A DNA stretch of 35,563 nt from Parcubacteria bacterium DG_74_1 (GTDB lineage Bacteria; Patescibacteriota; Minisyncoccia; Minisyncoccales; DG-74-1): contig LJNE01000002.1 of assembly GCA_001303125.1 (NCBI GenBank), positions 1 to 35,563 on the forward strand. The letters run 5' to 3'. Positions within the stretch are counted from its first letter, which is position 1; every line of letters begins with the position of its first letter. The notes under the pieces were generated by a model. That model was not told the origin of the DNA, searched no databases, and was given only the letters and a program-made list of their open reading frames with translations. The position numbers and the translations under genes were made by a program. Shown here piece by piece: positions 3,900 to 29,500 of the stretch.

Positions 3900-5009
3900 T
3901 TATTTAGATTTTTTAATAACGAATTTCTTTTCCAGTTCTTTAAGACTTGCCACAACTCCAGTGTATTCCAATTCAGACATAGACAGCATAGCTGCTCCAT
4001 AAAATCCTTGTCGCCGTATTTCTTCTGCTTTCCTAGAAACAGAATGTCTAACATAATCCCAGTAAGGATGGTCAAAAGCATCGGCTGGCTCAGTTAACTT
4101 GCCATCTTTTACTGAGAACCCTAAACAACTCACTACAGGTGGCCCGTCAAAAAAGGAGATAGCTGAATTTTTTTTAACCGGCATTAAAGGGCCAATATGA
4201 GAGCCACGCATAAATCCTGCGACATAAGGACCTATGGTGTAGGGAGATAGGACTTCGCCGGTGGCCGGGAAATCTTTCTGTGTCCTGATTAAAGCTACCG
4301 GATCATCCTTGCCAACGTACTTGCCGGCTATGTTATGGAGCCGAGTAGTACTAACTGATGCTGTCTGCTCTTTTGAGGCTCTTGACCAAATTGATTCTAC
4401 GACGAATCTACCAGGTTCCCGCAATAAAACAGCAATATCATAAATATTTTCTGGTGTATAAAGTTCAATAAATCTATCAGCTTTAGTATAAGCTACGTCC
4501 ATTATGACGAATTTGAATCCTTTTTTAATTTCTGGGGAAAGCAAAAGTCCGGCATTATGCATGGGATCGGCAAAGGTCAAATACAGAGAGAGATTGTAGG
4601 CGCCGGGCTCGGTTTTATCTGCAGCAAACATTAGAAAGGATTCGGCCGGTCTTTCCTCAATATCAAGCTCAGCTACCGCTGGACCCATACCCTTGACATT
4701 GCCCGTAAACCCCTCTTTGAGCAAATCTTGGCCGGCACCGTAAAGCCCTTGCGCTTTGGCAACTTTGGTACCGGCCACAAAAGCATCCCAGCAGAGCTTG
4801 TGAACCTTACTATCTAAGGTGCCTCTTTTGTGGGTACTCAGGATGGCAATATCATCCCCGGTGTGTCCAACATAATAGTCAATCAACAGTCCTTTGCCTT
4901 TTTCTTTGATATAATTTTCGACTGACTGCAATAACTTTTGGCTCGGTTTGATATGCCCGCCAATACTCCCAATGTCTGCTTTAATGATAGATAAAGTAAT
5001 TTTCGCCAT
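3900..5009 (-). CDS. fbp: Archaeal-type bifunctional fructose-1,6-bisphosphate aldolase/phosphatase
   Basis: MAKITLSIIKADIGSIGGHIKPS...HTGDDIAILSTH...DAFVAGTKVAKAQGLYGAGQDLL...FAADKTEPGAYNLSLYLTFADPMHNAGL; matches the FBPA/P family. Confidence 0.92.
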   Translation of the reverse strand: MAKITLSIIKADIGSIGGHIKPSQKLLQSVENYIKEKGKGLLIDYYVGHTGDDIAILSTHKRGTLDSKVHKLCWDAFVAGTKVAKAQGLYGAGQDLLKEGFTGNVKGMGPAVAELDIEERPAESFLMFAADKTEPGAYNLSLYLTFADPMHNAGLLLSPEIKKGFKFVIMDVAYTKADRFIELYTPENIYDIAVLLREPGRFVVESIWSRASKEQTASVSTTRLHNIAGKYVGKDDPVALIRTQKDFPATGEVLSPYTIGPYVAGFMRGSHIGPLMPVKKNSAISFFDGPPVVSCLGFSVKDGKLTEPADAFDHPYWDYVRHSVSRKAEEIRRQGFYGAAMLSMSELEYTGVVASLKELEKKFVIKKSK

Positions 5010-5130
5010 ATTTTTATTATCTTTACGCCATTAGAACCTTCATATTTCGAATATTCTTCTTAAATACAGAGTTTCTAACGGGATTTAAATTTAATTTTTG
5101 TTTGACCTTTTCATATATTATAATTATATC

Positions 5131-7506: not shown

Positions 7507-9427
7507 TTTTTATTTTTTGTTTAATTCCCTCTACGCTTTCGGGATTAGCTAAAGTGGATAAATCACCTAATTCCTCTCCTGTAAATAATCTTTTTAGAAT
7601 TCTCCTCATAATTTTCCCGCTCCTTGTCTTTGGCAGGTCCTCAACCAAATAAATTTCTTTTGGCAAAGCAATGGGACCTATCTCTTTTCTAATCTGTTCC
7701 ACCACTTCTTTTTTAAAATGTTCTAGATTCTCTGCCCCTGTATAACAAATAAAGGCGACGGGTACTTCTCCTTTAATTTCGTCTGGGATTCCCACTACTG
7801 CTGACTCAGAAATTTCTGGGTGTTTATTTATGGCATTCTCTAGCTCTCCGGTGGCAACCCTGTGGCCAGCCACTTTAATCACGTCATCAACTCTGCCAAT
7901 AATGCGAATTAAGCCGTTCTCGTCTTTAAATGCTCCGTCAGAAGTAAAATAAGTCTCTTTACTATACTGGCTCCAATAAGTTTCTAAATACTTTTCCGGA
8001 TTTTTGTAAACTCCCCTCAATAACCCTGGCGTAAAGGGAGGCAATAAGACTAAGTTCCCTTCTTTTCCTGGTAGACAACTTTTTCCTTCATCGTCAAAAA
8101 TATCAAATTTTGTCCCCGGAAATGGTAAACCAGTAAAGGTTGGCTTAAAGGGACCAATTCCCGGCAAAGAGGTAATTAAAATTCCGCCTGTTTCTGTTTG
8201 CCACCAGGTATCAACAAGAGGACATCTCCCCTTCCCGACCTCATTAAAATACCAGAGCCAGGCCCCTTCATCAATCGGTTCCCCAACCGAACCCAATAAT
8301 CTTAATGTTTCAAATTTATAATCTTTAAGAATTTCTGTTCCGTATCTCTCAAACATCCTGATGGCCGTGGGGGCAGTATAAAAAATTGTTACTTTATGCT
8401 CTTCAATAATTTTAGCCCATCTGTCTGGCGCTGGAAAATCAGGAGCACCTTCAAAAATTAAGGTTGTTATTCCGTTGAGCAATGGGCTGTAGCAAGTATA
8501 AGAATGGCCCGTAATCCACCCCAAGTCAGAAGTACACCATAATATGTCCTCGGGATGAAAATCAAAAATCCATTTTCCTGTCCAGTATGCCTGAACCGTA
8601 TAGCCGCCGCAGTTATGAACAATTTGTTTTGGCCGGCCGGTACTTCCGCTAGTTGCTAATAAGAATAGTAAATCTTCTGAATCCATTATTTCTGCCTCGC
8701 ATTTAGTGTTTTCATCTTTAATTAATTCATCCCACCATAAATCTTTTCCTTTCTGCCAGGGGATTTCATTTACTGCTCGTTTTACGACAATTACCCTCTC
8801 AATTTTTGTTCCTTTAATTCCCTCGTCAGCACCTTGCTTTAAATTAATAATTTTCCCCCTTCTATAGTAGCCGTCGGCTGTTATTAAAATTTTAGCTTCT
8901 GAACCCTGTAACCGTATTTGTAAGGCAGAAGAGGAATAAGCTGAAAAAACTACCGTATGCACGGCCCCAATTCTAGCACAGGCAAGCATAGAAATTATTA
9001 TTTCTGGAACCATGGGTAAATATATTCCTACCCTATCTCCTTTTTTAATGCCTAACTTTTTAAGAGCATTGGCAAACTGAGAGACCAGAGAGAAAAGGTC
9101 CTGATAAGTGAAAATTCTGGAGGGCTGATCAGTCGGCTCAGGCTCCCAAATTAAAGCTGTTTTATCTTTTATTTTGTCCCAACCCTGAGGGCTACCTTCA
9201 AAAATACTTGAGGTAATGTTTATCTTTCCGCCCAAAAACCATTTAAAATAAGGAGGAGTGTGTTCAAATGGCTTTTGCCATTTTTTGAACCAAAAAAGCT
9301 CCCTGGCTAATTTCTCCCAAAATTTAACTGGGTTTTTTTCGCCTTCTTTGTAAATTTTTCTATCGTTTACCCAAGCCTTATTTTTGAACCTTGTGGTTGG
9401 ATAATATAAACCTCCTTTCTTAAGCAT
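7499..9427 (-). CDS. acsA: Acetyl-CoA synthetase (AMP-forming)
   Basis: LLATSGSTGRPKQIVH, WWQTETGGI, GRVDDVIKVAGHRVATGELE, TRSGKIMRR; overlaps ppsA start by 8 bp. Confidence 0.94.
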   Translation of the reverse strand: MLKKGGLYYPTTRFKNKAWVNDRKIYKEGEKNPVKFWEKLARELFWFKKWQKPFEHTPPYFKWFLGGKINITSSIFEGSPQGWDKIKDKTALIWEPEPTDQPSRIFTYQDLFSLVSQFANALKKLGIKKGDRVGIYLPMVPEIIISMLACARIGAVHTVVFSAYSSSALQIRLQGSEAKILITADGYYRRGKIINLKQGADEGIKGTKIERVIVVKRAVNEIPWQKGKDLWWDELIKDENTKCEAEIMDSEDLLFLLATSGSTGRPKQIVHNCGGYTVQAYWTGKWIFDFHPEDILWCTSDLGWITGHSYTCYSPLLNGITTLIFEGAPDFPAPDRWAKIIEEHKVTIFYTAPTAIRMFERYGTEILKDYKFETLRLLGSVGEPIDEGAWLWYFNEVGKGRCPLVDTWWQTETGGILITSLPGIGPFKPTFTGLPFPGTKFDIFDDEGKSCLPGKEGNLVLLPPFTPGLLRGVYKNPEKYLETYWSQYSKETYFTSDGAFKDENGLIRIIGRVDDVIKVAGHRVATGELENAINKHPEISESAVVGIPDEIKGEVPVAFICYTGAENLEHFKKEVVEQIRKEIGPIALPKEIYLVEDLPKTRSGKIMRRILKRLFTGEELGDLSTLANPESVEGIKQKIKND

Positions 9428-9473
9428 AGTTGTTATATTTTTTAATGAATATATTATAATTATAAATCAAATA

Positions 9474-9506
9474 AAAAAATGGGGCAACGCCCCAGGGGGT
9501 TTTTTA
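9474..9506 (-). terminator. Rho-independent terminator downstream of gap (also looks bidirectional)
   Basis: Minus strand TGGGGC-GTT-GCCCCA followed by TTTTTT; on the plus strand the stem is followed by AGGGGGTTTTTT. Confidence 0.75.
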
Positions 9507-9522
9507 ATCTGCAGGCTAAACA

Positions 9523-10551
9523 TTAAATTTGCTTGCCGACAAATTCGGCAAACTCCGCTAAGCGACAAGCATAAGCCCATTCGTTGTCATACCAGGCTAA
9601 GATTTTAATTAAATTATTATCAATCACTCTGGTGTTATCCGCATCAACTATAGCCGAATAGGAATTACCAATATAATCGGAAGAGACCAAAGGAGCATCT
9701 TCCACCCCTAAAATTCCTTTTAATTTCACATTTTGGCTTGCCTTTTTGAGAATAAAATTAACCTCTTCTGCCGTGGTCTTTTTCTCTGTCTGGCAAACTA
9801 AATCCACAACAGAAACCGTAGGGGTAGGTACTCGTATGGCAATACCATCCAATTTCCCTTCAAGCTCGGGTAGGACCCGACCTAATGCTTTGGCCGCTCC
9901 CGTGCTCGTCGGAATAATATTTAAAGCAGCTGCCCTCGCTCTTCTTAAATCCTTATGGGGCAAATCCAAAATTCTCTGGTCGTTGGTATAAGAGTGGATC
10001 GTGGTCATAAATCCTTTAATAATTTTAAAATTATCGTTCAAAACCTTAGCTATAGGGGTCAAACAATTAGTGGTGCAAGAGCCCATATCTATAACTTTAT
10101 CTTTTTTAGAATCAAATTTTTCCTCATTCACTCCCAGAATATAACAGGGAATTTTTTCCGGATCCTTTGAGGGAGCTGAAATAATTACTTTTTTAGCACC
10201 AGCTGCCAAATGCTTTTCTGCTTTTTCATAATTTCTAAAAACTCCGGTACATTCCAGAACAATATCAATACCCATTTCTTGCCAAGGTAATCTACTCGGA
10301 TCGGTCTCTGCAAAAACCTTAATCCTTGTTCCTTTTGAAGTCCCGTCCACGAATAATTCGCCGTCTGTGGCCTTGATCGTCTTTTTCCAGATCCCGTAAA
10401 CCGAATCGTATCTTAAAAGATGGGCCAGGGTTTTGGAATCGGTCAAATCATTAACAGCCACCACTTCTAAATCGGGATGATTATTAATTATCCTCCGAAA
10501 AGTGGGTCGGCCGATACGGCCAAAACCATTAATAGCTATTTTAACCGGCAT
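9523..10551 (-). CDS. gap: Glyceraldehyde-3-phosphate dehydrogenase, type I
   Basis: MPVKIAINGFGRIGRPTFRR, active site GSCTTNCLTPIAKVL, WYDNEWAYACRL. Confidence 0.97.
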   Translation of the reverse strand: MPVKIAINGFGRIGRPTFRRIINNHPDLEVVAVNDLTDSKTLAHLLRYDSVYGIWKKTIKATDGELFVDGTSKGTRIKVFAETDPSRLPWQEMGIDIVLECTGVFRNYEKAEKHLAAGAKKVIISAPSKDPEKIPCYILGVNEEKFDSKKDKVIDMGSCTTNCLTPIAKVLNDNFKIIKGFMTTIHSYTNDQRILDLPHKDLRRARAAALNIIPTSTGAAKALGRVLPELEGKLDGIAIRVPTPTVSVVDLVCQTEKKTTAEEVNFILKKASQNVKLKGILGVEDAPLVSSDYIGNSYSAIVDADNTRVIDNNLIKILAWYDNEWAYACRLAEFAEFVGKQI

Positions 10552-14229: not shown

Positions 14230-14925
14230 TTAAATAGATCTTTCTTTCTGACTTGGAGCAAAAATAATAAAAATAATGATACCTCCAAAAATAAATAATA
14301 TATCCCTCCAAATAGAGCCAATATTTAAAAAAACAAAATCGAACAAAGCGCCTATAATCACAATTAAAGAAAGGATAATAAACCCTAAAGTTTTTCTTTT
14401 AGTATAAACATCTTGGGCTTTCTGAAATTGCTCAAAAAAAATGAAAATTGCCGGAATAAAAGCAATAAGAAATAAAGAAGCTCGTAAATTTATAGCAAAA
14501 CTAGAAACTATTGGAGCACCCCAATTTATCGCTCCGCTCGGTTCTAAAAAAGGGTTAAATGGAATAAAAATAGTTAAATAAGTAGAAATCATTCCTAAAA
14601 GAAAAACTGGAATAAATCCTAACCAGGGAGAAACTTTAGGTGAAAATTTAACATAAACCGAGAAATAAGCCATTATTGAGAAAGCAAGAGCCTGCAAAAA
14701 TCCTCCAAAATTTACTGTGAATCTCAAAAAAAATAAATTTTTAACAAAAAACAATCCGCCTATCGCTTTAATAAGAACGAATAGCCAAAAAATTGAAAAG
14801 ATATAGAATAAAAGTTTGGAAACAATATCTTTCTCTTTTTTCCAATACTGGAAAACCCGATAGACAAGAGAGCCTATAGCAAAAGAAAGGATTAAATAAG
14901 CGAATCCGGTGATGGAATAACTCAT
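14230..14925 (-). CDS. Multi-TM membrane protein, copy 1 of a tandem paralogous trio
   Basis: About 7 hydrophobic segments; MSYSITGFAYL, FQYWKKEKDIVSKL, VSPWLGFIPV, FNPFLEPSGAINWG. Confidence 0.8.
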   Translation of the reverse strand: MSYSITGFAYLILSFAIGSLVYRVFQYWKKEKDIVSKLLFYIFSIFWLFVLIKAIGGLFFVKNLFFLRFTVNFGGFLQALAFSIMAYFSVYVKFSPKVSPWLGFIPVFLLGMISTYLTIFIPFNPFLEPSGAINWGAPIVSSFAINLRASLFLIAFIPAIFIFFEQFQKAQDVYTKRKTLGFIILSLIVIIGALFDFVFLNIGSIWRDILFIFGGIIIFIIFAPSQKERSI

Positions 14926-15677
14926 AATTTATTTGAGGTTTTAATATAATAAGAAGATGGTCCAGACAAGGGGCGGGGCATGGTTAAAATAAGTGTAATG
15001 AAAAGAATGATACTACAAACAATAAGAGCTATATCTCTCCCTATGGCACCTAAGTTAAAAGTATTAATAAATAAAAAATCAAAAGAGGCGACTATCAGTA
15101 TAAATAAAAAGGCGAGACCTAATCCAAGAGATTTTGCCCTGATATAAGGGTCTTCTGAATTTTTAAATTGTGAAAGAAAAATAATAGATAACGGGATAAT
15201 AGTAATGAGTGAAAGAAAAAGTCTCAGAGACGATACAAAAACGGCCATAGAACTAGATGGAAAGCCCCAATTAATAGCTCCACTCGCTTCAAGAAAGGGA
15301 TTAAATTGAAGTAAAACGACACTCAAAATTGCGGCAATTAGTCCTAAAACAAGAACCGGAATAAAACCAAGCCAAGGAGAAATCTTAGGAAATTTAAGAT
15401 AAATAATATGATAAGCTATAACGGCGAAAATAAGCGCTTGGATAAAAACGCCGACCTCTATTTTTTTTGATAAAACAGGAGGAAGAGGGCTATCGGCAAA
15501 AAATAATCCACTAATTGCGTCAATTAAAACAAACAATCCAAAAAGGCTGGCAATATAAAGCGCCTGTTTAGAAACAGCAGATTTTTCTTTCTTCCAGTAC
15601 TGAAAAAGGCGATAAATTAAAAATCCCACAGGAAAAAGTAAAACTAAATAAGCAACACCAGTAATAGAATAACTCAT
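14922..15677 (-). CDS. Multi-TM membrane protein, copy 2 of a tandem paralogous trio
   Basis: MSYSITGVAYL, FQYWKKEKSAVSK, ISPWLGFIPV, FNPFLEASGAINWG; 4 bp overlap with copy 1. Confidence 0.8.
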   Translation of the reverse strand: MSYSITGVAYLVLLFPVGFLIYRLFQYWKKEKSAVSKQALYIASLFGLFVLIDAISGLFFADSPLPPVLSKKIEVGVFIQALIFAVIAYHIIYLKFPKISPWLGFIPVLVLGLIAAILSVVLLQFNPFLEASGAINWGFPSSSMAVFVSSLRLFLSLITIIPLSIIFLSQFKNSEDPYIRAKSLGLGLAFLFILIVASFDFLFINTFNLGAIGRDIALIVCSIILFITLILTMPRPLSGPSSYYIKTSNKL

Positions 15678-16420
15678 AGTTTACTTGAGCTTTTAATATA
15701 ATAAGAAGATGACCCAGGCAAGGGACGGGGCATAGTTAAAATAAGTGTAATGAAAAGAATGATACTAATAGCAATATACTCTATATCTCGCCATATTGGG
15801 TCTACCTTTAAAAAGCTAACGAGTAAAAAATCAAGTAACATACTCGATGATGCAATTATAATGGAGAGGGAAAATCCAAACGCTTTCCTTTTAGCATAAA
15901 GGTCTTTTGAGATTTTAAACTGTTGGAAAAGAATAATAATGATTGGAGTAAGAACAAGCAGGGCTAAAAAGATTCTCAGTATTGCCATAGCAAAAACAAA
16001 TGGGCCAGAGGAAAAACCCCAGTTTATCGCTCCGCTTTCCTCAAGATGTGGGTTAAATGAAGTCATCACTGTTAGGACGAAGGCAATCAACCCTAAGATA
16101 AGAACTGGGATAAGACCAAGCCAAGGAGAAACTCTGGGAAATTTAAGATAAACAATCAAATAAGCTAAAATGGCAAAAATAAAGGCCTCAACGGCAGCAG
16201 CAGCATCTATAGTCATTTCTAAAAAAGTAGGATTGGTGGAAAAAAATAATCCCCCAATCGCTTTAATCAGGGTAAATATTTCAACCAAAATAACAGCATA
16301 AAGCCAGAGTTTAGAAACAAGGTCTTTTTCTCTTTTCCAGTATTGAAAGAAGCGGTAAACTAAAAAACCGAAGGCGAGAAAAAAAGTTAAATAAGCGAAT
16401 CCGGTAATGGAGTAATTCAT
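15674..16420 (-). CDS. Multi-TM membrane protein, copy 3 of a tandem paralogous trio
   Basis: MNYSITGFAYL, FQYWKREKDLVSKL, VSPWLGLIPV, FNPHLEESGAINWG; 4 bp overlap with copy 2. Confidence 0.8.
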   Translation of the reverse strand: MNYSITGFAYLTFFLAFGFLVYRFFQYWKREKDLVSKLWLYAVILVEIFTLIKAIGGLFFSTNPTFLEMTIDAAAAVEAFIFAILAYLIVYLKFPRVSPWLGLIPVLILGLIAFVLTVMTSFNPHLEESGAINWGFSSGPFVFAMAILRIFLALLVLTPIIIILFQQFKISKDLYAKRKAFGFSLSIIIASSSMLLDFLLVSFLKVDPIWRDIEYIAISIILFITLILTMPRPLPGSSSYYIKSSSKL

Positions 16421-18346: not shown

Positions 18347-19042
18347 ATGACAAGATCAAGAACAACCCTTATTGCCCTAGGAGGCTCAATAATTTGTCCC
18401 CAGACAGGGAAAATCAATACAGTTTTTTTAAAGGACTTCAAAGAATTAATTTTAAAACTTATTAAAAGGGGGCATCGATTTATCATTGTTGCTGGTGGTG
18501 GAAAAATCTGCCGGCTTTACCAAAAGGCAGCAGCCAAAATTGTAAAATTACCTTATGAAGATATTGATTGGTTAGGAATTCACGCCACCCGGCTTAATGC
18601 TCATTTACTAAGAACGATTTTCCGAGGGTTGGCTTATCCGGTGGTTTTAGACGAGCCAGAAAAGCCGGTCAAGAATAATTGGCGGCTCTTAATAGCGGCC
18701 GGCTGGAAACCCGGCTGGTCAACCGATTACATCGCCGTCTTGCTGGCTAAAAGATTTAGGATAAAGAAAATTATTGATGCCGGGAATATCCCTTTCGTTT
18801 ATAATAAAGACTTTTTGAAATATAAAAATGCCTCTCCAATTAAAGAAATTTCTTGGAAAAATTACCAAAAATTAGTCGGCACAAAATGGATTCCGGGATT
18901 AGCCGCCCCTATTGACCCGGTTGCCGCCAAGTTAGCTCAAAAATTAAAAATCCCCGCCCTAATAGTTAAAGGTACGGAGCTCAAAAATTTAGAAAAAGTT
19001 ATTTTGGGTCAGAAATTCGAAGGAACTATTATTGAACCTTAA
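18347..19042 (+). CDS. Archaeal-like uridylate kinase (amino acid kinase family)
   Basis: TLIALGGSIICP, FIIVAGGGKICRLYQKAA, GWSTDYIAVLLAKRF, APIDPVAAKLAQKLKIPALIVKGTEL, C-terminal GTIIEP as in archaeal PyrH. Confidence 0.78.
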   Translation: MTRSRTTLIALGGSIICPQTGKINTVFLKDFKELILKLIKRGHRFIIVAGGGKICRLYQKAAAKIVKLPYEDIDWLGIHATRLNAHLLRTIFRGLAYPVVLDEPEKPVKNNWRLLIAAGWKPGWSTDYIAVLLAKRFRIKKIIDAGNIPFVYNKDFLKYKNASPIKEISWKNYQKLVGTKWIPGLAAPIDPVAAKLAQKLKIPALIVKGTELKNLEKVILGQKFEGTIIEP

Positions 19043-20505
19043 TCAATTTTTTTCCTGCGCAGAAAAGACGGCGTTTCCCAAAATTTCTCTTTTTGTAACA
19101 TTTCCTTTTCTACTTCCTCTGCTTCTTTTTTTATTTGGAGAGCGCTTTTTCTAACTTTTACTTCGGCTGTCTTCTTTTCCTGTTCCGCAGCGTGCCAAAG
19201 ATTCTCTTTCAGAGTTTCATTAGGTTGAGTCTCTTCTTGAGGAAGTTTCTTTGAAACTTTCACTTTTACTTTTCTTAGCCTAGCTTTTTTGGCTTTTTTT
19301 GTCTTTTTTTTGGGCCTTTTTATAGGTTCAAGTTTTATACCCGTCTTGTTCTGCGGAGTTTTTTTCCTAGGTCTAATTTTTACATCCTCTTCTGTGCTGA
19401 GTTTTTTCCTTTTTGGCCGGGAAGGTTTTTTTACCCGTCTTCTTTTAGATTTTTTCTTCGGAGCTTTATCAGAGAAAGCTTTCGTAACGCAACCGGTCGC
19501 AAAAACTGTTGTCTTAATAACTCCAGTTCCTTTTCCGGAAGACAAAGGCTGAATCCCAAAAACAATTCTTGCTTCCGGATTGACTTTCTCTGAAATGGTC
19601 TTAGAGATCTGATTTACCTCTTCTAAGGATATTCCTTTCTCGCCGATAATATTAAATAAAATCCCTTTGGCTCCATTTATTCCATAAGGATATAAAGGAG
19701 AAACAAGGGCTTTTTCCACCGCATCTTTGGCTGTTCCTTCCTTTTTGGGAAGAGAAATGGTATTTAAATATGCCAACCTTCCCTGGCCCTGTAAGACTGT
19801 CCTCAAATCGGCGAAATCAATATTAATTAAGCCTGGCTGGTAAATTGTTCCAATTAGTCCAGCTAAGGCTGTAGCTAAATTTTTATTAATAGAAGAAAGA
19901 GCGGCTTTTAAAGGGGTGGTTTTGTCAACAATCTGGAAAATTCTTTCGTTTGGCAAGATAGTGATACTGTTTAACTTTGACCTTAAATTTTTTAAAGCCA
20001 CCTTAGCAATTTCCATTTTCCTTTCTCCTTCAAATTTAAAGGGCAAAGTAAAAATACCGTAAGTAAGGTTACCTAAACTCTTTGAAATCTTTGCAAAAAT
20101 AGAGGCAGCTCCAGAACCAGTCCCCCCCCCTAGACAGGCAATTAAAATGACCAAATCTTGACCCTGTAATATTTTTTTAATCCTTTCTTTCTCATTCTGG
20201 CCGGCTGTCTCGCCTAACTCAAGATTCATGCCGGTTCCCAGACCCCGGGTGAAACCTTGCCCGAAAGGAAAACGCTCTACCTTTCTGGAAATTTCCCTCA
20301 AGGCCTGCAGATCAGTATTGGCAGCAAAAAAACTGGCTCTTTTTACTCCTTGAGCCAATTCCGAAACAATATTTCCTCCTCCCCCGCCAATACCAATCAC
20401 CCTGATTTTAGTTCTTTTCAGCGTACTAACCTTTTCCGCTTCGCCTTCTTTGGTCCGGGCCTTGGGTAAAGGTTTTTTGAGCTTCTTTTTAGGTTTTTTA
20501 GCCAT
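19039..20505 (-). CDS. ftsZ: Divergent FtsZ/tubulin-like GTPase with basic N- and C-terminal extensions
   Basis: IRVIGIGGGGGNIVSEL, AANTDLQAL, tubulin signature GGGTGSGAA, NIDFADLRTVLQGQG; C-terminal ~140 aa dominated by K/R/E/P. Confidence 0.85.
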   Translation of the reverse strand: MAKKPKKKLKKPLPKARTKEGEAEKVSTLKRTKIRVIGIGGGGGNIVSELAQGVKRASFFAANTDLQALREISRKVERFPFGQGFTRGLGTGMNLELGETAGQNEKERIKKILQGQDLVILIACLGGGTGSGAASIFAKISKSLGNLTYGIFTLPFKFEGERKMEIAKVALKNLRSKLNSITILPNERIFQIVDKTTPLKAALSSINKNLATALAGLIGTIYQPGLINIDFADLRTVLQGQGRLAYLNTISLPKKEGTAKDAVEKALVSPLYPYGINGAKGILFNIIGEKGISLEEVNQISKTISEKVNPEARIVFGIQPLSSGKGTGVIKTTVFATGCVTKAFSDKAPKKKSKRRRVKKPSRPKRKKLSTEEDVKIRPRKKTPQNKTGIKLEPIKRPKKKTKKAKKARLRKVKVKVSKKLPQEETQPNETLKENLWHAAEQEKKTAEVKVRKSALQIKKEAEEVEKEMLQKEKFWETPSFLRRKKID

Positions 20506-20540: not shown

Positions 20541-20549
20541 TGCTGCTGA

Positions 20550-20580
20550 GGGGTATTAGATTATATTCGGACCTGTTTTA
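20550..20580 (-). repeat. Spacer repeat core, copy 1 (upstream of ftsZ promoter)
   Basis: Minus strand TAAAACAGGTCCGAATATAATCTAATACCCC. Confidence 0.7.
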
Positions 20581-20607
20581 TGTATAAGCTAAAAAGGAAT
20601 AAAGAAA

Positions 20608-20825: not shown

Positions 20826-21140
20826 TTATAAAAACCAGAATACTAATATATTAGCTACAAGTAGGATAAATGCTGTAATTAGCATTACTTTTATGATTTT
20901 ACTTTGCCTTGGTGTAGGTCTTTCTGTTTTTCTTGCCAGCACAACCCATATCGGGATAAAAAGTATCAAAGGAAAAACAGCGCCGCTAGCTACCTCTTGA
21001 CCACTAATCGAGTGGCCCCCTTGTAACAATATAATAATTATACCACCTGCTAAAACTACCAGCAGAATAACCATTAAAGCAATGACGAATTGCCAAAAGG
21101 TTTTACTATAATTTTCTGATCTCTTTAGTTCTTGCTCCAT
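20826..21140 (-). CDS. Small membrane protein, unknown function
   Basis: 104 aa, three hydrophobic segments; ATG 8 nt downstream of TAGAAT. Confidence 0.65.
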   Translation of the reverse strand: MEQELKRSENYSKTFWQFVIALMVILLVVLAGGIIIILLQGGHSISGQEVASGAVFPLILFIPIWVVLARKTERPTPRQSKIIKVMLITAFILLVANILVFWFL

Positions 21141-21148
21141 ATTTTTTT

Positions 21149-21225
21149 ATTCTACCACAGAATTACCCAAATGGGCAGTAATGCACTAGCTGGAGGGTAT
21201 TGGACTACGTTCGAACCTGTTTAAA
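21149..21225 (-). repeat. Spacer repeat copy 2 (core + hairpin + TGTGGTAGAAT)
   Basis: Minus strand AAACAGGTTCGAACGTAGTCCAATACCCTCCAGCTAGTGCATTACTGCCCATTTGGGTAATTCTGTGGTAGAAT. Confidence 0.8.
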
Positions 21226-21237
21226 AATATTCTTATC

Positions 21238-22128
21238 TTAAATTACAAGAATTATTATGCCAATCAAAACAGCGACAACACCTAACAACTTCTGTTTGTT
21301 CAAATCAGCGCCAAGCAAAGGAACGCTTAATAAAGTAACAAATAAAATTTGAGTATTTTTAATCGATTCGTGGTATCCAGGATTGGGAGAGATTGCTATT
21401 CCCTTTATACCAAGAATATTAGCTATAAAAGAAAACGTTGCCGCTAAAAAGACTATTGGCAGAAAACTCTTTAATTTAGGTCTATCCTTTAAGTAATTTT
21501 TCATATCTTTACGGCTTAATATAGCAAAGGCTAAAAAATTAAAACCGAAAACAAAAAGCGCTATCTCTTGAGGAGAAAAGCCTATTTGACTGACTTTCTT
21601 TATTCCCAACACCGCGACAGTAAAACTTAAAGCCCCTATAATAGCTAGCACATCCCATCTTAAAAATCGTCTTTCGGTTCGTTGAATAGAAAAAATATCT
21701 TTTTTTTCTATAATAAGTGCGGCTATACCACCAATTATAAAAAACATTCCCATTAATTTTATTAAACTAAATGAACTTCCAAAAATTAAAAAAGCAATCA
21801 CGCTTATTAAAAAAACATTACTGCTTTTAATCGTTCCAGCAAAACCAGGATTTGGCGCCTTTATCACTGCTGTAAAATCTGCCCAATTACCAATAACAGC
21901 AAAAATACTAACAATTGTCATTATGATTATAAAATCCAGGAAAAATTCTGAATCCCAAATGGTATTAATCGTCCCAATATTTATAACTAAAAAACCTAAA
22001 AAAGCAAAAAGAAAAAGAAAAAGCAATATTTGTTTTGAAGAAAAACCTTTGTTTCCCAGATATCTCGTACACAAAACCATTCCCGTAAATGAAAACGCTG
22101 TTAAAATTGAGTATAGATACCAGGACAT
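21238..22128 (-). CDS. EamA/DMT-family transporter-like membrane protein
   Basis: 296 aa, about 10 TM segments, two EamA-like halves. Confidence 0.8.
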   Translation of the reverse strand: MSWYLYSILTAFSFTGMVLCTRYLGNKGFSSKQILLFLFLFAFLGFLVINIGTINTIWDSEFFLDFIIIMTIVSIFAVIGNWADFTAVIKAPNPGFAGTIKSSNVFLISVIAFLIFGSSFSLIKLMGMFFIIGGIAALIIEKKDIFSIQRTERRFLRWDVLAIIGALSFTVAVLGIKKVSQIGFSPQEIALFVFGFNFLAFAILSRKDMKNYLKDRPKLKSFLPIVFLAATFSFIANILGIKGIAISPNPGYHESIKNTQILFVTLLSVPLLGADLNKQKLLGVVAVLIGIIILVI

Positions 22129-22134
22129 ATCCTC

Positions 22135-22213
22135 ATCCTACCAAAAAACCGCCTTCTTGGGAAAACGGCTGAAGCTAGCTAGGAGTATTGGACCCTGTTC
22201 GGACCTGTTTTAT
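22135..22213 (-). repeat. Spacer repeat copy 3 (core + terminator hairpin + TTTTTTGGTAGGAT)
   Basis: Minus strand AAAACAGGTCCGAACAGGGTCCAATACTCC...GCCGTTTTCCCAAGAAGGCGGTTTTTTGGTAGGAT. Confidence 0.8.
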
Positions 22214-22265
22214 GGAGAATTATGGCTTTAGGGTGCCAGTTATAGAATAATATAAGTTCGTCGTT

Positions 22266-22336
22266 CTAAACAAAAAACCAGCTAATAAGCTGATTTCTTG
22301 TCCTAAATAAACCTCTTTCGACGCTTACTTGGGGAC
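22266..22336 (-). repeat. Repeat B copy 1 containing a rho-independent terminator
   Basis: Minus strand CCCCAAGTAAGCGTC...ACAAGAAATCAGCTTATTAGCTGGTTTTTTG; near-identical to 24421-24494. Confidence 0.7.
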
Positions 22337-22361
22337 AGGGGGGAAGAAGATTTTTAGTTCC

Positions 22362-22694
22362 TTAATAGTGTAGGTCCCCAACTCGACGTTGGGTGTTAAA
22401 ATAGATCTTGCAACTTTTCCAATCAACCTGCTCTAGGAACATAGGATTTGGTTCTCGGGAAAGCTGGCCCATACCGACGATTCCGCCTGTAATAAACCAA
22501 GATTCAGATTCAATAGAATCATCTGTAGCCGTCACCCCTTTCACTCTAATACGGAAGATATTCTTCATGACATGGGTAAATGGGGGTGGCTCAACTATGA
22601 AGTCTACTTCTCTTCCCTTAAAGAGACCCCACATTAGGTCCAATTTTGATGGTCCCTTCACGACCCTAACAGTACTCTTTAACTTCGATGTCAT
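22362..22694 (-). CDS. Orphan 110 aa protein, unknown function
   Basis: ORF with AGGAGG four nt before ATG and an upstream TTGACA/TATAAT promoter. Confidence 0.65.
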   Translation of the reverse strand: MTSKLKSTVRVVKGPSKLDLMWGLFKGREVDFIVEPPPFTHVMKNIFRIRVKGVTATDDSIESESWFITGGIVGMGQLSREPNPMFLEQVDWKSCKIYFNTQRRVGDLHY

Positions 22695-22880
22695 ACGACC
22701 TCCTGCTAATATTTGGTAGTTCAGGCACTACCTCACCGTTCGTCACCTGACGCACCTAAAGCCATACAGCTCCAGGGATTGTTTTCTTCTTCCCCCACGG
22801 TAATATTATTTTAAGGAACCGAAATAGACATAATTTCTTCTGTCCATTTCGCTTCCTTTTTTTACTCCCTCCTGGCACTT
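22695..22880 (-). ncRNA. Candidate structured 5' leader of the 110 aa ORF
   Basis: Hairpin GGAA-GC-GAAAUGGACA...UGUCUAUUUC-GG-UUCC (22815-22856); hairpin GGTAGT-GCCTGA-ACTACC (22715-22732) whose loop can pair with 22745-22750. Confidence 0.45.
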
Positions 22881-22882
22881 AT

Positions 22883-22912
22883 ATTATATAACACAAAATA
22901 TCAATTTGTCAA
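22883..22912 (-). promoter_or_regulatory. Sigma70 promoter TTGACA-18-TATAAT
   Basis: Minus strand -35 at 22907-22912, -10 at 22883-22888. Confidence 0.75.
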
Positions 22913-22917
22913 TAAGA

Positions 22918-23000
22918 CATTCTACCAAAAAACCGCCCATAAGACGATTCTTTGGCTTTTGTAAACTGGGAGTATTGGACTCTGTTCGGACCTGTTTGAT
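22918..23000 (-). repeat. Spacer repeat copy 4
   Basis: Minus strand CAAACAGGTCCGAACAGAGTCCAATACTCCCAGTTTACAAAAGCCAAAGAATCGTCTTATGGGCGGTTTTTTGGTAGAAT. Confidence 0.8.
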
Positions 23001-23078
23001 GAAGAATCATGGGGGTTAGGATGCCAGCTTTGGGACGATGTTAGAACCTGGTTGACGGAAAGCTTAACTTAATTATAC

Positions 23079-23534
23079 CTACAGCCATCTCCTTACATGA
23101 TTTTTATATTCTCCATACTCTCTTCCAAAAATCCTTTCAAGATTTCTTTCTTCAAAAGGAATAAATAATAATCCCATCAAAAATACGAAGGCGATCGGGA
23201 CGGCAAACGTAACCAAGGTTCCATGGTTAATAGCTATACCCAATAGTATTGCAGTAAATCCTAAATATTGTGGGTTTCTGCTAATACGGAAAGGACCTGA
23301 GGTTATTAGCTGGGTAGGATTTTCATATGGCTTGACTGTGGTTTTCTTTTTCTTTAATAACATATCAGCCCAGATATTTATAACTCCACCAAAAATAATA
23401 AAGGCAAAACCTAAATAGGTATATGGAGGAAAAATTATTTTCTTAATAGGGAAAATAAAATGTAATCCTATTGATAATAATAAGAGTATTATAAAATAGG
23501 TCGGCGGGAGAGGCTTCTTCTTCGGCTTTTCCAT
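23079..23534 (-). CDS. Isoprenylcysteine carboxylmethyltransferase/phospholipid methyltransferase-like membrane protein
   Basis: Several TMs, TSGPFRISRNPQYLGFTAILLGIAI...FIPFEERNLERIFGREYGEYKNHVRRWL. Confidence 0.85.
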   Translation of the reverse strand: MEKPKKKPLPPTYFIILLLLSIGLHFIFPIKKIIFPPYTYLGFAFIIFGGVINIWADMLLKKKKTTVKPYENPTQLITSGPFRISRNPQYLGFTAILLGIAINHGTLVTFAVPIAFVFLMGLLFIPFEERNLERIFGREYGEYKNHVRRWL

Positions 23535-23545
23535 ATAATATTTAT

Positions 23546-23728
23546 CTATTTTTCGAAAAAAAGAGAGATTGCGTATGCAAAGAATCCTACTCCAAAACCG
23601 ATAAATAGACCTGCGGGTATATTATTCATCGCGAAGCCGATTCCAAAACCAAGAAACAAGCCGGCAGGAATAAAAATCGCCCCCTTTTCTTTTTTCCATT
23701 TTTTCCTTTCAAATTTTTGCTCTTCCAT
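23546..23728 (-). CDS. Small Gly-rich membrane protein with internal repeat
   Basis: 60 aa; FIPAGLFLGFGIGFAMNNIPAGLFIGFGVGFF. Confidence 0.6.
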   Translation of the reverse strand: MEEQKFERKKWKKEKGAIFIPAGLFLGFGIGFAMNNIPAGLFIGFGVGFFAYAISLFFEK

Positions 23729-23763
23729 ATTTTTATAATGATTTATTTTTAGGCCTTTGTCTT

Positions 23764-23840
23764 ATTCTACCAAAAAACCGCCCAAATGGGCAGTGATGCA
23801 CTAACTGGGGGTATTGGACTATGTTCGGACCTGTTTTATA
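23764..23840 (-). repeat. Spacer repeat copy 5
   Basis: Minus strand TAAAACAGGTCCGAACATAGTCCAATACCCCCAGTTAGTGCATCACTGCCCATTTGGGCGGTTTTTTGGTAGAAT. Confidence 0.8.
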
Positions 23841-23841
23841 T

Positions 23842-23866
23842 AAAAAACACCTGTTTATTAACAGGT
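23842..23866 (-). terminator. Rho-independent terminator after the small membrane ORF
   Basis: Minus strand ACCTGTTAATAAACAGGTGTTTTTT. Confidence 0.75.
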
Positions 23867-23904
23867 AAATACAAGAAAATGGGGGTTGGGACGGGGTTGA
23901 ATAG

Positions 23905-24141
23905 TTAAGGATTCTTCCCCGTCCCGGTGTGCTTTGCTGGGAGAAACATCGATTTCCTAGTGCGATATATCCATATGAGATATCCCACCAAAATAATAGA
24001 GAAGATTAATACCCAGCCAAGGTTCCCTGCCATCGCCTCTTCTATGATTCTTCTAATAAGGAAAGTTATGGCGAAGGCTCTTATAAAGAGAATAGCGTGC
24101 TCCACTTCTGTCACCTCCTTCTCGTACCTGCCGAATTTCAC
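23905..24141 (-). CDS. Small membrane protein, unknown; likely true start GTG at 24105
   Basis: AAGGAGG lies 8 nt before the GTG at 24105; track start (GTG at 24141) has no SD. One or two hydrophobic segments. Confidence 0.55.
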   Translation of the reverse strand: MKFGRYEKEVTEVEHAILFIRAFAITFLIRRIIEEAMAGNLGWVLIFSIILVGYLIWIYRTRKSMFLPAKHTGTGKNP

Positions 24142-24303
24142 GGTCAGGGCTTATAGAGCACACGGGTTTTCAAAGGACTGGAATAGAAATAATTTTTTAT
24201 ATCCATTCCGCCCCTCTGAAATAAATAACAGGCATCCTAGGAGAGAGTTGCCTGTTGACTCAAATATCAAGATATATTCAGCTTTACTTACTCTCTCCTT
24301 TAT
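24142..24303 (-). ncRNA. Candidate structured 5' leader with H-type pseudoknot
   Basis: Minus strand GGAGAGAGT (24298-24290) complements ACTCTCTCC (24248-24240), which lies in the loop of AACAGGCA/TGCCTGTT (24256-24249 with 24234-24227). Second hairpin GGAAUGGA...UCUAUUCC at 24180-24209. Confidence 0.5.
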
Positions 24304-24309
24304 ATCTCT

Positions 24310-24337
24310 ATTATAGCATATTCATAGAATTTGTCAA
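24310..24337 (-). promoter_or_regulatory. Sigma70 promoter TTGACA-16-TATAAT
   Basis: Minus strand -35 at 24332-24337, -10 at 24310-24315. Confidence 0.75.
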
Positions 24338-24342
24338 TAGAT

Positions 24343-24412
24343 ACAAAAAACCACCTTCTTTTAAAGGCTAATAACCAACGGGGGGATTGGACTATGTTCG
24401 AACCTGTTTTTT
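24343..24412 (-). repeat. Spacer repeat copy 6
   Basis: Minus strand AAAAACAGGTTCGAACATAGTCCAATCCCCCCGTTGGTTATTAGCCTTTAAAAGAAGGTGGTTTTTTGTAT. Confidence 0.8.
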
Positions 24413-24420
24413 AGCTTAAA

Positions 24421-24494
24421 TAAACAAAAAAACCAGTTAATAAGCTGATTTCCTGTCCCAAATAAATCTTCTTTCTAGACACTTACTTGGGGGG
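24421..24494 (-). repeat. Repeat B copy 2 containing a rho-independent terminator
   Basis: Minus strand CCCCCAAGTAAGTGTC...AGGAAATCAGCTTATTAACTGGTTTTTTTG; matches 22266-22336. Confidence 0.7.
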
Positions 24495-24495
24495 T

Positions 24496-24537
24496 GGTAG
24501 CGGGAATTAGAAGTGTTCAACTTCTTTACCCGCTACC
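24496..24537 (-). terminator. Strong 3' hairpin directly after the 255 aa ORF
   Basis: GGTAGCGGG/CCCGCTACC (9 bp) plus AGAAGT/ACTTCT (6 bp) inverted repeat, no immediate T-run. Confidence 0.55.
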
Positions 24538-24550
24538 TTAGTAGGAAGAT

Positions 24551-25318
24551 CTACATAGAAGAACTCACGAAGCTCTCTGGAGGGACGCTGACGTCGGTAA
24601 TCTGTCGAGCAGTATAGAAAATTCTCCCCTCGGCTCCGAAGAGACTATCTTCGTTCCGAAGCACAAACTCATCGCCGAATACAAGCTCGCCCCATTTAAT
24701 CTCAGGATCAGTCTCTTCCGAGACATGAGTCTTGTTTCCCTCATGAAACGAACGAGAACCGAGAGTTGATTTTGCATCTCGGTACCCAGCACCCTGCTGA
24801 CCTGTTACGGCTGGTCTCACTATCGCTTGACCCTTTTGGGGATCAATAATAAGAGCGATGAAAGTTGGCTCGCCGTTGCACCCGATCGTCAATTGATCGC
24901 CTTTGCGAAACTGATCTATCTTGAGGCTACTTACTGCAACCGCTTTTGGTTTGTCCAGAAGTAGCAGTTTGCTTCCCGTGGCCTCACTTATTGTAAGACC
25001 TTTTGGAAGCCAGACGGGGACGAGAGCACACTCGGTATTTATGGGACAATTTTTTTCAAGCCCCAGGAACTCACGGGTTTCCGAAGGATTTAAAGGTATT
25101 CCCACGATGCACCCTCTGCTCCGAGCATTCGCAGTGATTTCCTCTACTTCTTTGTAACCCGTAGAGACTATGACTGCTCCATACCAATTTCCAGCCACCC
25201 TGCAAGGTTTCTGTTTCCGCAATAATATCATTGCTTCACTTATCGCGAAAATACAGAGAGCAAGCAGTCCTACAGCAACAAAGATACCAGCTATACCTAG
25301 ATGCATGTAACTATCCAT
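24551..25318 (-). CDS. Orphan 255 aa protein, N-terminal TM anchor plus soluble domain
   Basis: AGGAGG upstream of ATG, TTGACA promoter; no family recognised. Confidence 0.65.
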   Translation of the reverse strand: MDSYMHLGIAGIFVAVGLLALCIFAISEAMILLRKQKPCRVAGNWYGAVIVSTGYKEVEEITANARSRGCIVGIPLNPSETREFLGLEKNCPINTECALVPVWLPKGLTISEATGSKLLLLDKPKAVAVSSLKIDQFRKGDQLTIGCNGEPTFIALIIDPQKGQAIVRPAVTGQQGAGYRDAKSTLGSRSFHEGNKTHVSEETDPEIKWGELVFGDEFVLRNEDSLFGAEGRIFYTARQITDVSVPPESFVSSSM

Positions 25319-25413
25319 TTTTCTTTCTTTCCTCCTTTTCGTTTGTATTCTAGTCTATCTTCTATATGAAATGGCTTTCCATGAAGCCACGTTGTATAAG
25401 TACTAGTAATAAA

Positions 25414-25442
25414 ATAATACCATAAAATATGGTATTTGTCAA
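25414..25442 (-). promoter_or_regulatory. TTGACA-17-TATTAT promoter with a perfect palindrome filling the spacer
   Basis: Minus strand -35 25437-25442, -10 25414-25419, palindrome AATACCATA-nnn-TATGGTATT at 25416-25436. Confidence 0.7.
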
Positions 25443-25532
25443 TAATATGCTGGCATCCTCGGTCTCGGACCCGCGTTTTAAGAGAAAAATCGAGGATTCT
25501 TGACCGTGTCTCATAACGCGGCTCGGTCGGGA

Positions 25533-25970
25533 CTATACTTTAATTTTTGGAAAGTATAAACGAGCTTCTAAAAACTTAGTGAGATTCTTCATTTCTTCTT
25601 CGCTCATTGGTTCATTATGATAAGTTCCTGGAGCAAGTGGAAGTTGTACTGGCGCACCCCAAGTTTTTCCTTTTCGTCTGGCGTAAATATGAACATGAAA
25701 TCTCGGAGTGTTGTCAGGTAAAAGTCCCCAATTCCCATTGGCCTGTAAATTAAACCAAGGGGCCAGCTTCAGCTCTTCCATAATCTGAGCCACTCTTGCA
25801 GCGACCTTAAATGTTTCTGCACATAAATCTGGATTAGCCCAAGCAGATGGAACATTTGTTTTAGGATAAACTACGACATGCAAACCTTCCTCAGGTGGAA
25901 TATGGGGGTTAATCGGAGTAAATATTTCAAATTTTTCATTAGACCATAAAGGTAATTTTTCTTCTTGCAT
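25533..25970 (-). CDS. HIT-like (histidine triad) protein
   Basis: 145 aa, GLHVVVYPKTNVPSAW and RFHVHIYARRKG (third triad His replaced by Tyr). Confidence 0.65.
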   Translation of the reverse strand: MQEEKLPLWSNEKFEIFTPINPHIPPEEGLHVVVYPKTNVPSAWANPDLCAETFKVAARVAQIMEELKLAPWFNLQANGNWGLLPDNTPRFHVHIYARRKGKTWGAPVQLPLAPGTYHNEPMSEEEMKNLTKFLEARLYFPKIKV

Positions 25971-25978
25971 ATTATTTT

Positions 25979-26012
25979 ATTTTACCAAAAAAGCGCCATT
26001 TTGGCGATTTCC
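25979..26012 (-). repeat. Hairpin half of the spacer repeat, without the core, upstream of the HIT gene
   Basis: Minus strand GGAAATCGCCAAAATGGCGCTTTTTTGGTAAAAT. Confidence 0.65.
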
Positions 26013-26102: not shown

Positions 26103-26468
26103 TTATGACGTTCCGACTGCCTCGGAATCTGCCACCTTTTTCTCTGGGTGTTCCCAGAGAATCTCTTCGGTAAAGCCCCACTCCCAGATAACTGCACCGT
26201 TTGGGTCATTGTTATCTTTGAGTCCAGGAGTAGACCACCAATATGGTCCAGTGGGACTGAGTGACTGCGCCGTTATCTTAACGACTTTCCCTGCCTCCAA
26301 TCCACTGTGTGGATTCTTACCTGGCTTATAGTAGAGTTCCAGACTAGCTTTTACGAATCTCTGAACATCGTTCCCCGCCACTATATATGTGGTCGTATCT
26401 CCTCCTTCCCAATAAAGAGTAATCTGTTGTAGGGGCCTCTTAAGAAGTCTTTCCAATAATGAAGTCAT
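26103..26468 (-). CDS. Orphan ~121 aa protein, unknown function
   Basis: Start at internal Met (MTSLLERLLKRPLQQ) after AGGAGGTGAAAGG; the track start at 26507 overlaps the -10 box. Confidence 0.6.
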   Translation of the reverse strand: MTSLLERLLKRPLQQITLYWEGGDTTTYIVAGNDVQRFVKASLELYYKPGKNPHSGLEAGKVVKITAQSLSPTGPYWWSTPGLKDNNDPNGAVIWEWGFTEEILWEHPEKKVADSEAVGTS

Positions 26469-26498
26469 CCTTTCACCTCCTATTCTATTTCTGCTTAG

Positions 26499-26527
26499 AT
26501 TATACACTCGTTTGTTAAATTTGTCAA
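26499..26527 (-). promoter_or_regulatory. Sigma70 promoter TTGACA-17-TATAAT
   Basis: Minus strand -35 26522-26527, -10 26499-26504. Confidence 0.8.
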
Positions 26528-26532
26528 TAATC

Positions 26533-26563
26533 CCACAAAAAACCGCCCATAAGGCGATTCTTT
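26533..26563 (-). terminator. Terminator downstream of tRNA-Gln
   Basis: Minus strand CAAAGAATCGCCTTATGGGCGGTTTTTTG. Confidence 0.75.
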
Positions 26564-26571
26564 GAAAATAA

Positions 26572-26642
26572 CTGCGGGGCTAGGACTCGAACCTAGATAC
26601 CATGATCCAGAGTCATGTATCCTACCATTAGATGACCCCGCA
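26572..26642 (-). tRNA. tRNA-Gln (anticodon CUG)
   Basis: TGCGGGG...CATGA-CTCTGGA-TCATG...CTAGG-TTCGAGT-CCTAG-CCCCGCA-G cloverleaf; CCA not encoded. Confidence 0.9.
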
Positions 26643-26697
26643 ATACGTCCCCATTTTCTTAAATAGGATTACATTAAGAGGGCCATGGAGAAAAAAG

Positions 26698-29355: not shown

Positions 29356-29381
29356 CTTATCATATTTTTGCCAAAAAGAAA

Positions 29382-29424
29382 AGCCGGCGACCAGAGTTGA
29401 ACCGACGACCTAGTTCGCTGTTTA
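29382..29424 (-). pseudogene. tRNA 3'-half fragment
   Basis: Minus strand AGGTCGTCGGTTCAACTCTGGTCGCCGGCT aligns without gaps to the tRNA-Thr 3' end (22/30 identical, first 15 identical); no 5' half. Confidence 0.65.
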
Positions 29425-29428
29425 GATA

Positions 29429-29500
29429 AGCCGATTGTCGGGATTGAACCGACGACCTGCTGTTTACGAAACAGCTGCTCTACCACTGAGCTAAATCGGC
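29429..29500 (-). tRNA. tRNA-Thr (anticodon CGU)
   Basis: GCCGATT-TA-GCTCAGTGGTAGAGC-A-GCTGT-TTCGTAA-ACAGC-AGGTC-GTCGG-TTCAATC-CCGAC-AATCGGC-T. Confidence 0.94.

Follow-up and report, generated by a model that had tools for sequence, protein, structure and literature searches.

A putative fused terminator and promoter in the spacers of a gene-cassette array of Patescibacteria

The array and its five putative fused elements

The window analyzed here is a stretch of 35,563 nucleotides from Parcubacteria bacterium DG_74_1 (contig C2:1-35563), whose 585-kb genome is held in 13 contigs and is ~92% complete. It contains an array of ~8 short, unrelated, same-strand transcription units, running from a tRNA-Gln(ctg) gene (26571-26643) to an FtsZ-like gene (19039-20505) and having the form of a tandem array of unrelated one-gene cassettes. 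Several of the spacers carry a hairpin whose T-run continues directly into a promoter-like motif, and this putative fused terminator/promoter element is the subject of the present study. Two modes of expression are mixed in the array: the fused element with leaderless or short-leader genes, and canonical -35/-10 promoters located after the spacer, with genes led by a Shine-Dalgarno (SD) motif (22694, 24141, 25318, and 26507; genes are named by the position of their start codon).

The original prediction described a hairpin T-run that runs into TGn-TANNAT, with start codons 8 nt (21140), 6 nt (22128), and 8 nt (25970) after the hexamer and no room for a ribosome-binding site. Inspection of the sequence confirmed each of these points. 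TGGTA(G/A)(G/A)AT was found at five minus-strand sites, as exact TTTTTTGGTANNAT at 22135, 22919, 23764, and 25979 and as TTCTGTGGTAGAAT at 21149; the three distances are right, and the 6 to 8 nt between hexamer and ATG hold no SD motif. At the copy at 23764, the next ATG (23728) lies 35 nt on, behind a short leader without an SD motif. The copy at 22919 is followed by an independent TTGACA (22912-22907)-18-TATAAT (22888-22883) promoter of the SD-led gene 22694. RNA folding of the seven spacers in the window gave energies of -5 to -18.5 kcal/mol, with z < -2.4 in three and energies not clearly better than those of shuffles in the other four, so that terminator strength is predicted to vary.

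Statistics of the fused element

Scans of the genome took in 474 of the 585 kb. The loose motif alone is weak: with 2 mismatches allowed, it occurs 26 times in the window against 16.8 expected. Its fusion to terminators is far above chance, as TGnTAnnAT was joined to 14 of the 64 strict hairpin-plus-T5 terminators, compared with 0.34 in composition shuffles (maximum, 4 of 500). Where the T-run lacks a hairpin, it continues into this motif in just 32 of 5735 cases (Fisher p=1.6e-17). A GC-rich stem directly 5' of the T-run, as in intrinsic terminators, was present; a perfect stem was found at 177 of 245 T5+G[GA]TAnnAT sites and at 324 of 2248 control T-runs, a comparison in which the loci were partly selected by stem. 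An orientation bias of the elements (e.g., in the relative G213) was set aside as a signal because it is explained by the co-orientation of genes with replication.

The element is widespread in the order. With up to 2 mismatches, the 19-mer GGCGGTTTTTTGGTAGAAT was detected in 150 of 247 genomes, often in same-strand clusters, while a reversed-pattern control was found in ~11. The exact 19-mer occurred in 79 stretches among ~85,000 species genomes, almost only in Paceibacteria-type Patescibacteria; the named genomes with the exact element, almost all from Patescibacteria, were those of Nealsonbacteria, Parcubacteria, Portnoybacteria, Staskawiczbacteria, Gribaldobacteria, and Paceibacterota. A match in a viral contig (L216) was dropped, as this looks like a chimeric metagenome contig. 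Another exact copy lies on a contig labelled Pacearchaeota archaeon (L142), which is probably mis-binned and would otherwise be a cross-domain case. The sequence upstream differs among copies, the common part being only aaaTCGCCAa.a before GGCGG.

TTGACA was scored at every spacing upstream of the -10, and this revealed a single sharp peak at 17 nt. At least 4 of the 6 bases match at this spacing in 189 of 531 fused sites, compared with 6 to 19 sites at neighbouring spacings. With the common TYGYC-stem sites removed, TTGACA ranked 1 of 180 anagrams at 17 nt, and the same peak was observed in leaderless promoters that have no T-run. The sigma70 arrangement, a TTGACA-like -35 ~17 nt upstream of a TATAAT-like -10, is therefore present, with individual window sites matching at just 3 to 4 of 6 positions. 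Among hairpins of one stem family, the T-run was exactly 6 nt long in 103 of 105 that are fused and in 56 of 173 that are not; some loci had been fetched by a T6-containing pattern, and the count leaves out the directly scanned loci and keeps the array stretches chosen from those hits. Because of the 17-nt peak and the fixed T6, the 5' arm can be read as the -35, the loop, 3' arm, T6, and GG as the 17-nt spacer, and TGGTAGAAT as the extended -10. The extended -10 of the original prediction thus holds, but not as an extended -10 alone, given a TTGACA-like motif exactly 17 nt upstream in the 5' arm of the hairpin.

Among the 458-459 mechanically called genes of the genome, 36 have TGnTAnnAT 6 to 9 nt before the ATG (~2 expected), and the commonest spacing is 6, which places the transcription start on the A of the ATG. 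SD-like motifs were found for 34 of 458 genes overall. G213 likewise has -10 hexamers at a set, short distance before the start codon more often than the background predicts. In both genomes the spacing peak of TGnTAnnnT stays after removal of all T-run-fused sites, and the predicted leaderless starts are therefore a general feature of the two genomes and not of the repeat. In the scan of 85,000 species, 45 of 88 distinct copies of the element, chosen regardless of spacing, had an ATG 6 to 9 nt downstream; the counts were 19, 12, 11, and 3 at 6, 7, 8, and 9 nt, compared with ~0.6 per position at 10 to 60 nt. Over all loci, 131 of 290 distinct fused sites have an ATG at 6 to 9 nt, with a mode of 6. 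We also noted that among these 290 sites ARGGTC stands at the predicted transcript start in 19 of 139 cassettes with no adjacent ATG (e.g., L130, L117, L146, and L223) and in 1 of 134 leaderless ones. It lies mostly 6 to 8 nt after the hexamer and in most cases precedes a 35- to 60-nt A/T-rich leader without an SD motif, possibly a second type of 5' leader.

For single cassettes of the array, DNA relatives were found in different families, where the neighbouring cassettes were missing. The homology starts exactly at TGGTA(G/A)(G/A)AT in L218 (G110, EamA gene) and L221 (G087, 21140 gene), with differing sequence upstream. The ortholog of 23728 (L223, G079) keeps the -10 and the hairpin with changed pairs (CCACC/GGTGG versus GCCC/GGGC).

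Table 1. Features of the array in the window, listed from its tRNA-Gln end
Feature	Position	Strand	Remarks
tRNA-Gln(ctg), directly upstream of array, proposed anchor	26571..26643	-	
tRNA-Gln terminator hairpin TCGCCTTATGGGCGG-T6, then TTGACA-17-TATAAT promoter; first array unit	26499..26557	-	Fold -16 kcal/mol, z -3.95
SD-led cassette gene, no family match	26103..26507	-	Family, PADLOC, PHROG searches
Putative fused terminator/promoter of gene 25970	25979..26007	-	-35-like TCGCCA (26007-26002) in hairpin 5' arm; 17-nt spacer of loop, 3' arm, T6
Extended -10 of gene 25970, TGGTAAAAT	25987-25979	-	ATG 8 nt downstream
Leaderless cassette gene	25533..25970	-	Weak HIT-like match below cut-off; DNA relatives in G077 and G041
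TTGACA-17-TATTAT promoter of SD-led gene 25318	25414..25442	-	Read from sequence
SD-led cassette gene, no family match	24551..25318	-	Family, PADLOC, PHROG searches
Core spacer repeat	24380..24413	-	
Terminator hairpin and T6, then TTGACA-16-TATAAT promoter	24310..24379	-	No fused -10; SD-led gene 24141
SD-led cassette gene, no clear family match	23905..24141	-	Family, PADLOC, PHROG searches
Core spacer repeat	23807..23840	-	
Putative fused element before gene 23728	23764..23793	-	Hairpin CTGCCCATTTGGGCGG, T6, extended -10 TGGTAGAAT
Two-gene cassette	23079..23728	-	60-aa membrane protein; phospholipid methyltransferase-like (PEMT) protein
Second core copy, order-wide form CAGGTTCTAACATCGTCC	23023..23052	-	
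Core spacer repeat	22968..23001	-	
Putative fused element, long hairpin, TGGTAGAAT	22919..22956	-	Fold -18.5 kcal/mol, z -5.9
SD-led cassette gene, no family match	22362..22694	-	Family, PADLOC, PHROG searches
Core spacer repeat	22181..22214	-	
Putative fused terminator/promoter of gene 22128	22135..22170	-	Hairpin AGCCGTTTTC/GAAGGCGGTT; -35-like TTCCCA (22163-22158); fold -14.5 kcal/mol, z -2.4
Extended -10 of gene 22128, TGGTAGGAT	22143-22135	-	ATG 6 nt downstream; promoter conserved in ortholog L218
Leaderless cassette gene, EamA transporter	21238..22128	-	DNA relatives in G110 and G002
Core spacer repeat	21193..21226	-	
Putative fused element of gene 21140	21149..21177	-	Hairpin GCCCATTTGGGT, imperfect T-run; -35-like TGCCCA (21177-21172)
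Extended -10 of gene 21140, TGGTAGAAT	21157-21149	-	ATG 8 nt downstream
Leaderless cassette gene, small hydrophobic protein	20826..21140	-	DNA relative in G087
Core spacer repeat (AAACAGGTYCGAACATAGTCCAATACCCC), degenerate copy	20549..20582	-	Proposed cassette junction

Core repeats, tRNA genes, and proposed cassette exchange

Upstream of the hairpin lies a separate core, AAACAGGTTCTAACATCGTCC, with the consensus AAACAGGTTCTAACaTCGTCCa.t.cccggAGc over 102 distinct copies. Its local form is present in eight copies in this genome, and matches to the core occur in 51 of the 247 genomes of the order. When homologous cassettes were compared across genomes, homology stopped at or inside the core, at both ends in L057/L058 and L155/L183 and at one end in L029/L064 and L021/L022; that of the EamA cassette (22128) with L218 ends on the first core base, at 21219. 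One of the compared segments reached 95% identity over 2.4 kb in genomes belonging to different families. Some cores (L117, intergenic 10197-10426; L129, intergenic 4989-5162; and L155, ~1970-2040) are interrupted around TTCTAAC / ATCGTCC by a hairpin-like insert, which gives the impression that a further small element entered there, at the putative crossover point. A second type of spacer terminator (CCCAAGTAAG...CAGCTTATTAGCTGGTTTTTTG) at 22268-22349 and 24422-24497 has 83 to 90% identity with genomes of several other families.

The module GGAGC/AGGCTnGTG (the slash marks the junction) follows cores and is also found directly behind three tRNA-Asn(gtt) genes, and a ATGCTAAGTCAGGTGAC module follows cores and also stands behind a tRNA-Gln(ctg) gene. 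A copy of the tRNA 3' end is thus located at the element boundary, as in tRNA-targeted elements. At one syntenic tRNA-Asn locus, two genera have different first cassettes, and several arrays of this genome begin behind tRNA-Gln, tRNA-His, and tRNA-Glu. A supposed full tRNA at the start of the C7 array proved to be just a tRNA-like 3' fragment. Elsewhere in the window, a fragment at 29377-29411 that is like a tRNA-Thr 3' end lies directly downstream of tRNA-Thr (29429-29500) and resembles a displaced tRNA end left by integration.

Transcription does not explain the upstream core, which has the look of a junction for recombination, related to the 3' ends of tRNAs. The homology breaks at the core, together with the tRNA-Asn and tRNA-Gln 3' ends, suggest integron-like cassettes anchored at tRNA genes. 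The most economical reading would be an insertion of cassettes at the 3' ends of tRNA genes, which would then take the role of the integron attI. Site-specific recombination at the core would then move the cassettes, which would break at AAACAGGTTCTAACRTCGTC when recombining at tRNA-Asn and tRNA-Gln loci.

Membership of the integrons proper was rejected. RYYYAAC, one half of the attC boxes, was present in 0 of 101 cores, and GTTRRRY was present in 9, compared with 14.6 by shuffling. No IntI-type integrase was found in this genome. The sole tyrosine recombinase found there, L011 (C10) 8714-9670, is Xer-like and fits Xer-type models far better than TIGR02249, for which its match was below cut-off. 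It is oriented convergently to a second array, in which the same cores are present. This adjacency was reduced to a lead, as no recombinase was found nearby in the fetched arrays of relatives that were checked; no integrase was seen in the cassettes examined.

Searches of the cassette proteins against PADLOC (defence genes) and PHROG gave no firm match, and an Rfam search of the window matched tRNAs only. A cassette protein of the C10 array (L011:5581-6132) had a weak PADLOC match to Csx1/Csm6 (CARF+HEPN; E=1.6e-4). The SD-led cassette genes with TTGACA/TATAAT promoters (22362-22694, 23905-24141, 24551-25318, 26103-26507, and L011:2914-4625), none of them firmly matched to a family, are unlike the leaderless cassettes and may have another origin. 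The gene at the end of the array (19039-20505) encodes a divergent tubulin/FtsZ-like protein that is extended at its C terminus by a long Lys-rich stretch. At 14230-16420 lie three tandem paralogous genes of ~230 to 250 aa, spaced ~750 nt, with DNA identity blocks of 66 to 81%.

Interpretation and rival readings

The sequence statistics establish the hairpins, the -10, the -35 and start-codon spacings, the order-wide conservation, and the mosaicism of the cassettes. On these patterns we consider it likely that hairpin, T-run, and TGGTAGAAT form a bifunctional element, a sigma70-type promoter with an intrinsic terminator nested in it. In RNA transcribed from the upstream side, the GC stem and U6 would release the previous transcript. 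Read as DNA by the RNA polymerase holoenzyme, the 5' arm of the stem (TCGCCA, TTCCCA, and similar) would serve as a weak -35, the remainder of the loop, the 3' arm, and T6 (17 nt) as the promoter spacer, and TGGTAGAAT as the extended -10. Initiation would occur 6 to 9 nt after the hexamer, in about half of the copies (including those at 21140, 22128, and 25970) on the start codon itself, and yield a leaderless mRNA that would be translated as such. Within arrays of unrelated genes, each element would travel with one cassette and mark off its 5' end, and each cassette would therefore have its own promoter and be insulated from its neighbour.

The original prediction held that one short element may end an upstream transcript and start a leaderless one. 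The comparative statistics support this idea well, with amendments: apart from the -35 and the separate core repeat described above, only three of the five window copies, and about half of those elsewhere, abut a start codon, and leaderless starts also occur genome-wide without terminators. Several observations weigh against the nested reading. Two of the five window copies (22919 and 23764) are not leaderless. The T-run at 21149 is interrupted, and the energies of four of the seven window hairpins are not clearly better than those of shuffles. The promoter is missing in the EamA ortholog L224 and in the relatives of the HIT gene, L219/L220. Gene starts were called mechanically. Finally, much of the sequence that the stems have in common may be due to descent of the spacers from one another, which means that the conserved hairpins and some of the -35 signal are not entirely independent lines of evidence.

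The same elements might also be plain terminators set beside the downstream gene's own leaderless promoter; the fusion would then be an economy where intergenic regions are compact, and -35 and stem would not overlap functionally. In favour of this, leaderless TGnTAnnAT promoters without terminators occur throughout the genome, and orthologs L218 and L221 retain the promoter while the upstream terminator changes. Against simple adjacency stand the T-run, fixed at 6 only when fused, and the TTGACA-like peak, which falls within the stem at a spacing of exactly 17 nt; we regard it as possible but rather unlikely. It is very improbable that the element is a terminator only, with TGGTAGAAT an inherited part of the repeated spacer without promoter activity and the genes reached by readthrough or internal promoters: the ATG spacing peaks at 6 to 9 nt in independent contexts, the same spacing is found in non-repeat genes, and the ortholog footprint begins at the -10. 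That the spacer is partly shared by descent, and that a second TTGACA/TATAAT promoter follows several copies, speak for such a reading.

The whole spacer, including TGGTAGAAT, could instead be primarily a recombination site of the cassette system whose likeness to a promoter is incidental. Homology between relatives does break in the spacer core in several pairs, and the post-core modules also stand directly behind tRNA-Asn and tRNA-Gln genes. These breaks are in the core upstream of the hairpin, however, and not in the terminator/promoter, and leaderless promoters exist outside arrays, which makes this explanation improbable. A nested terminator and promoter is thus the reading that we retain for the hairpin and TGGTAGAAT. 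Core and element together could represent a so-far undescribed cassette system of Paceibacteria-type Patescibacteria, anchored at the 3' ends of tRNA-Asn and tRNA-Gln, in which one-gene cassettes, tRNA-like at the 5' end and bearing CAGGTTCTAAC at the 3' end, are exchanged through a tyrosine recombinase with neither attC sites nor IntI, and in which the nested terminator/promoter keeps each of them expressed (usually leaderless) and insulated wherever it lands; the chances of this seem to us about even.

Leaderless genes with a -10 (TANNNT) beside the open reading frame are an established feature of Deinococcus-Thermus and are frequent in Actinobacteria (PMC12340547, PMC3160421); Patescibacteria are not covered by the literature surveyed. 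The genes described here share with them a TA-type -10 ~12 bp upstream of the start codon, tight ATG spacing, and no ribosome-binding site, and differ in the extended -10, the 17-nt-spaced -35-like motif, and the intrinsic terminator in the array-copy spacer. Integron cassettes are generally promoterless, although promoter-bearing gene-less cassettes occur in Vibrio (PMC11014356). They resemble the present cassettes in forming one-orientation arrays of short unrelated genes with related spacers between, and some supply promoters; here, a terminator and promoter are present in most spacers, the sites do not resemble attC, and the genome yielded no IntI. Islands of the Islander class, which are targeted to tRNA genes, are described as carrying a copy of the tRNA end (PMC4383910). 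They are alike in having an element end that is a tRNA 3'-end copy directly behind a tRNA gene, and unlike in that our elements are single short genes, tandemly repeated, with no integrase in the cassettes examined. In engineered yeast terminator-promoter bifunctional elements (PMC10298055), one short DNA segment likewise ends one transcript and starts the next; those are eukaryotic and synthetic, whereas the present element occurs naturally in bacteria and is built on a hairpin terminator of the intrinsic type. A literature search, with most subscription papers and preprints outside its reach, returned no description of the element, of such arrays, or of Patescibacteria start-site maps.

Little has been published on the initiation of transcription and translation in Patescibacteria. 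If the proposed function is true, a 30-bp stop-and-start element that has its terminator within the promoter spacer would rank as a natural regulatory part of unusual compactness, and it would show how host-dependent bacteria with small genomes keep imported genes independently expressed. Together, the element and the tRNA-anchored junctions make gene acquisition and expression in Patescibacteria without known integrons open to experimental test.

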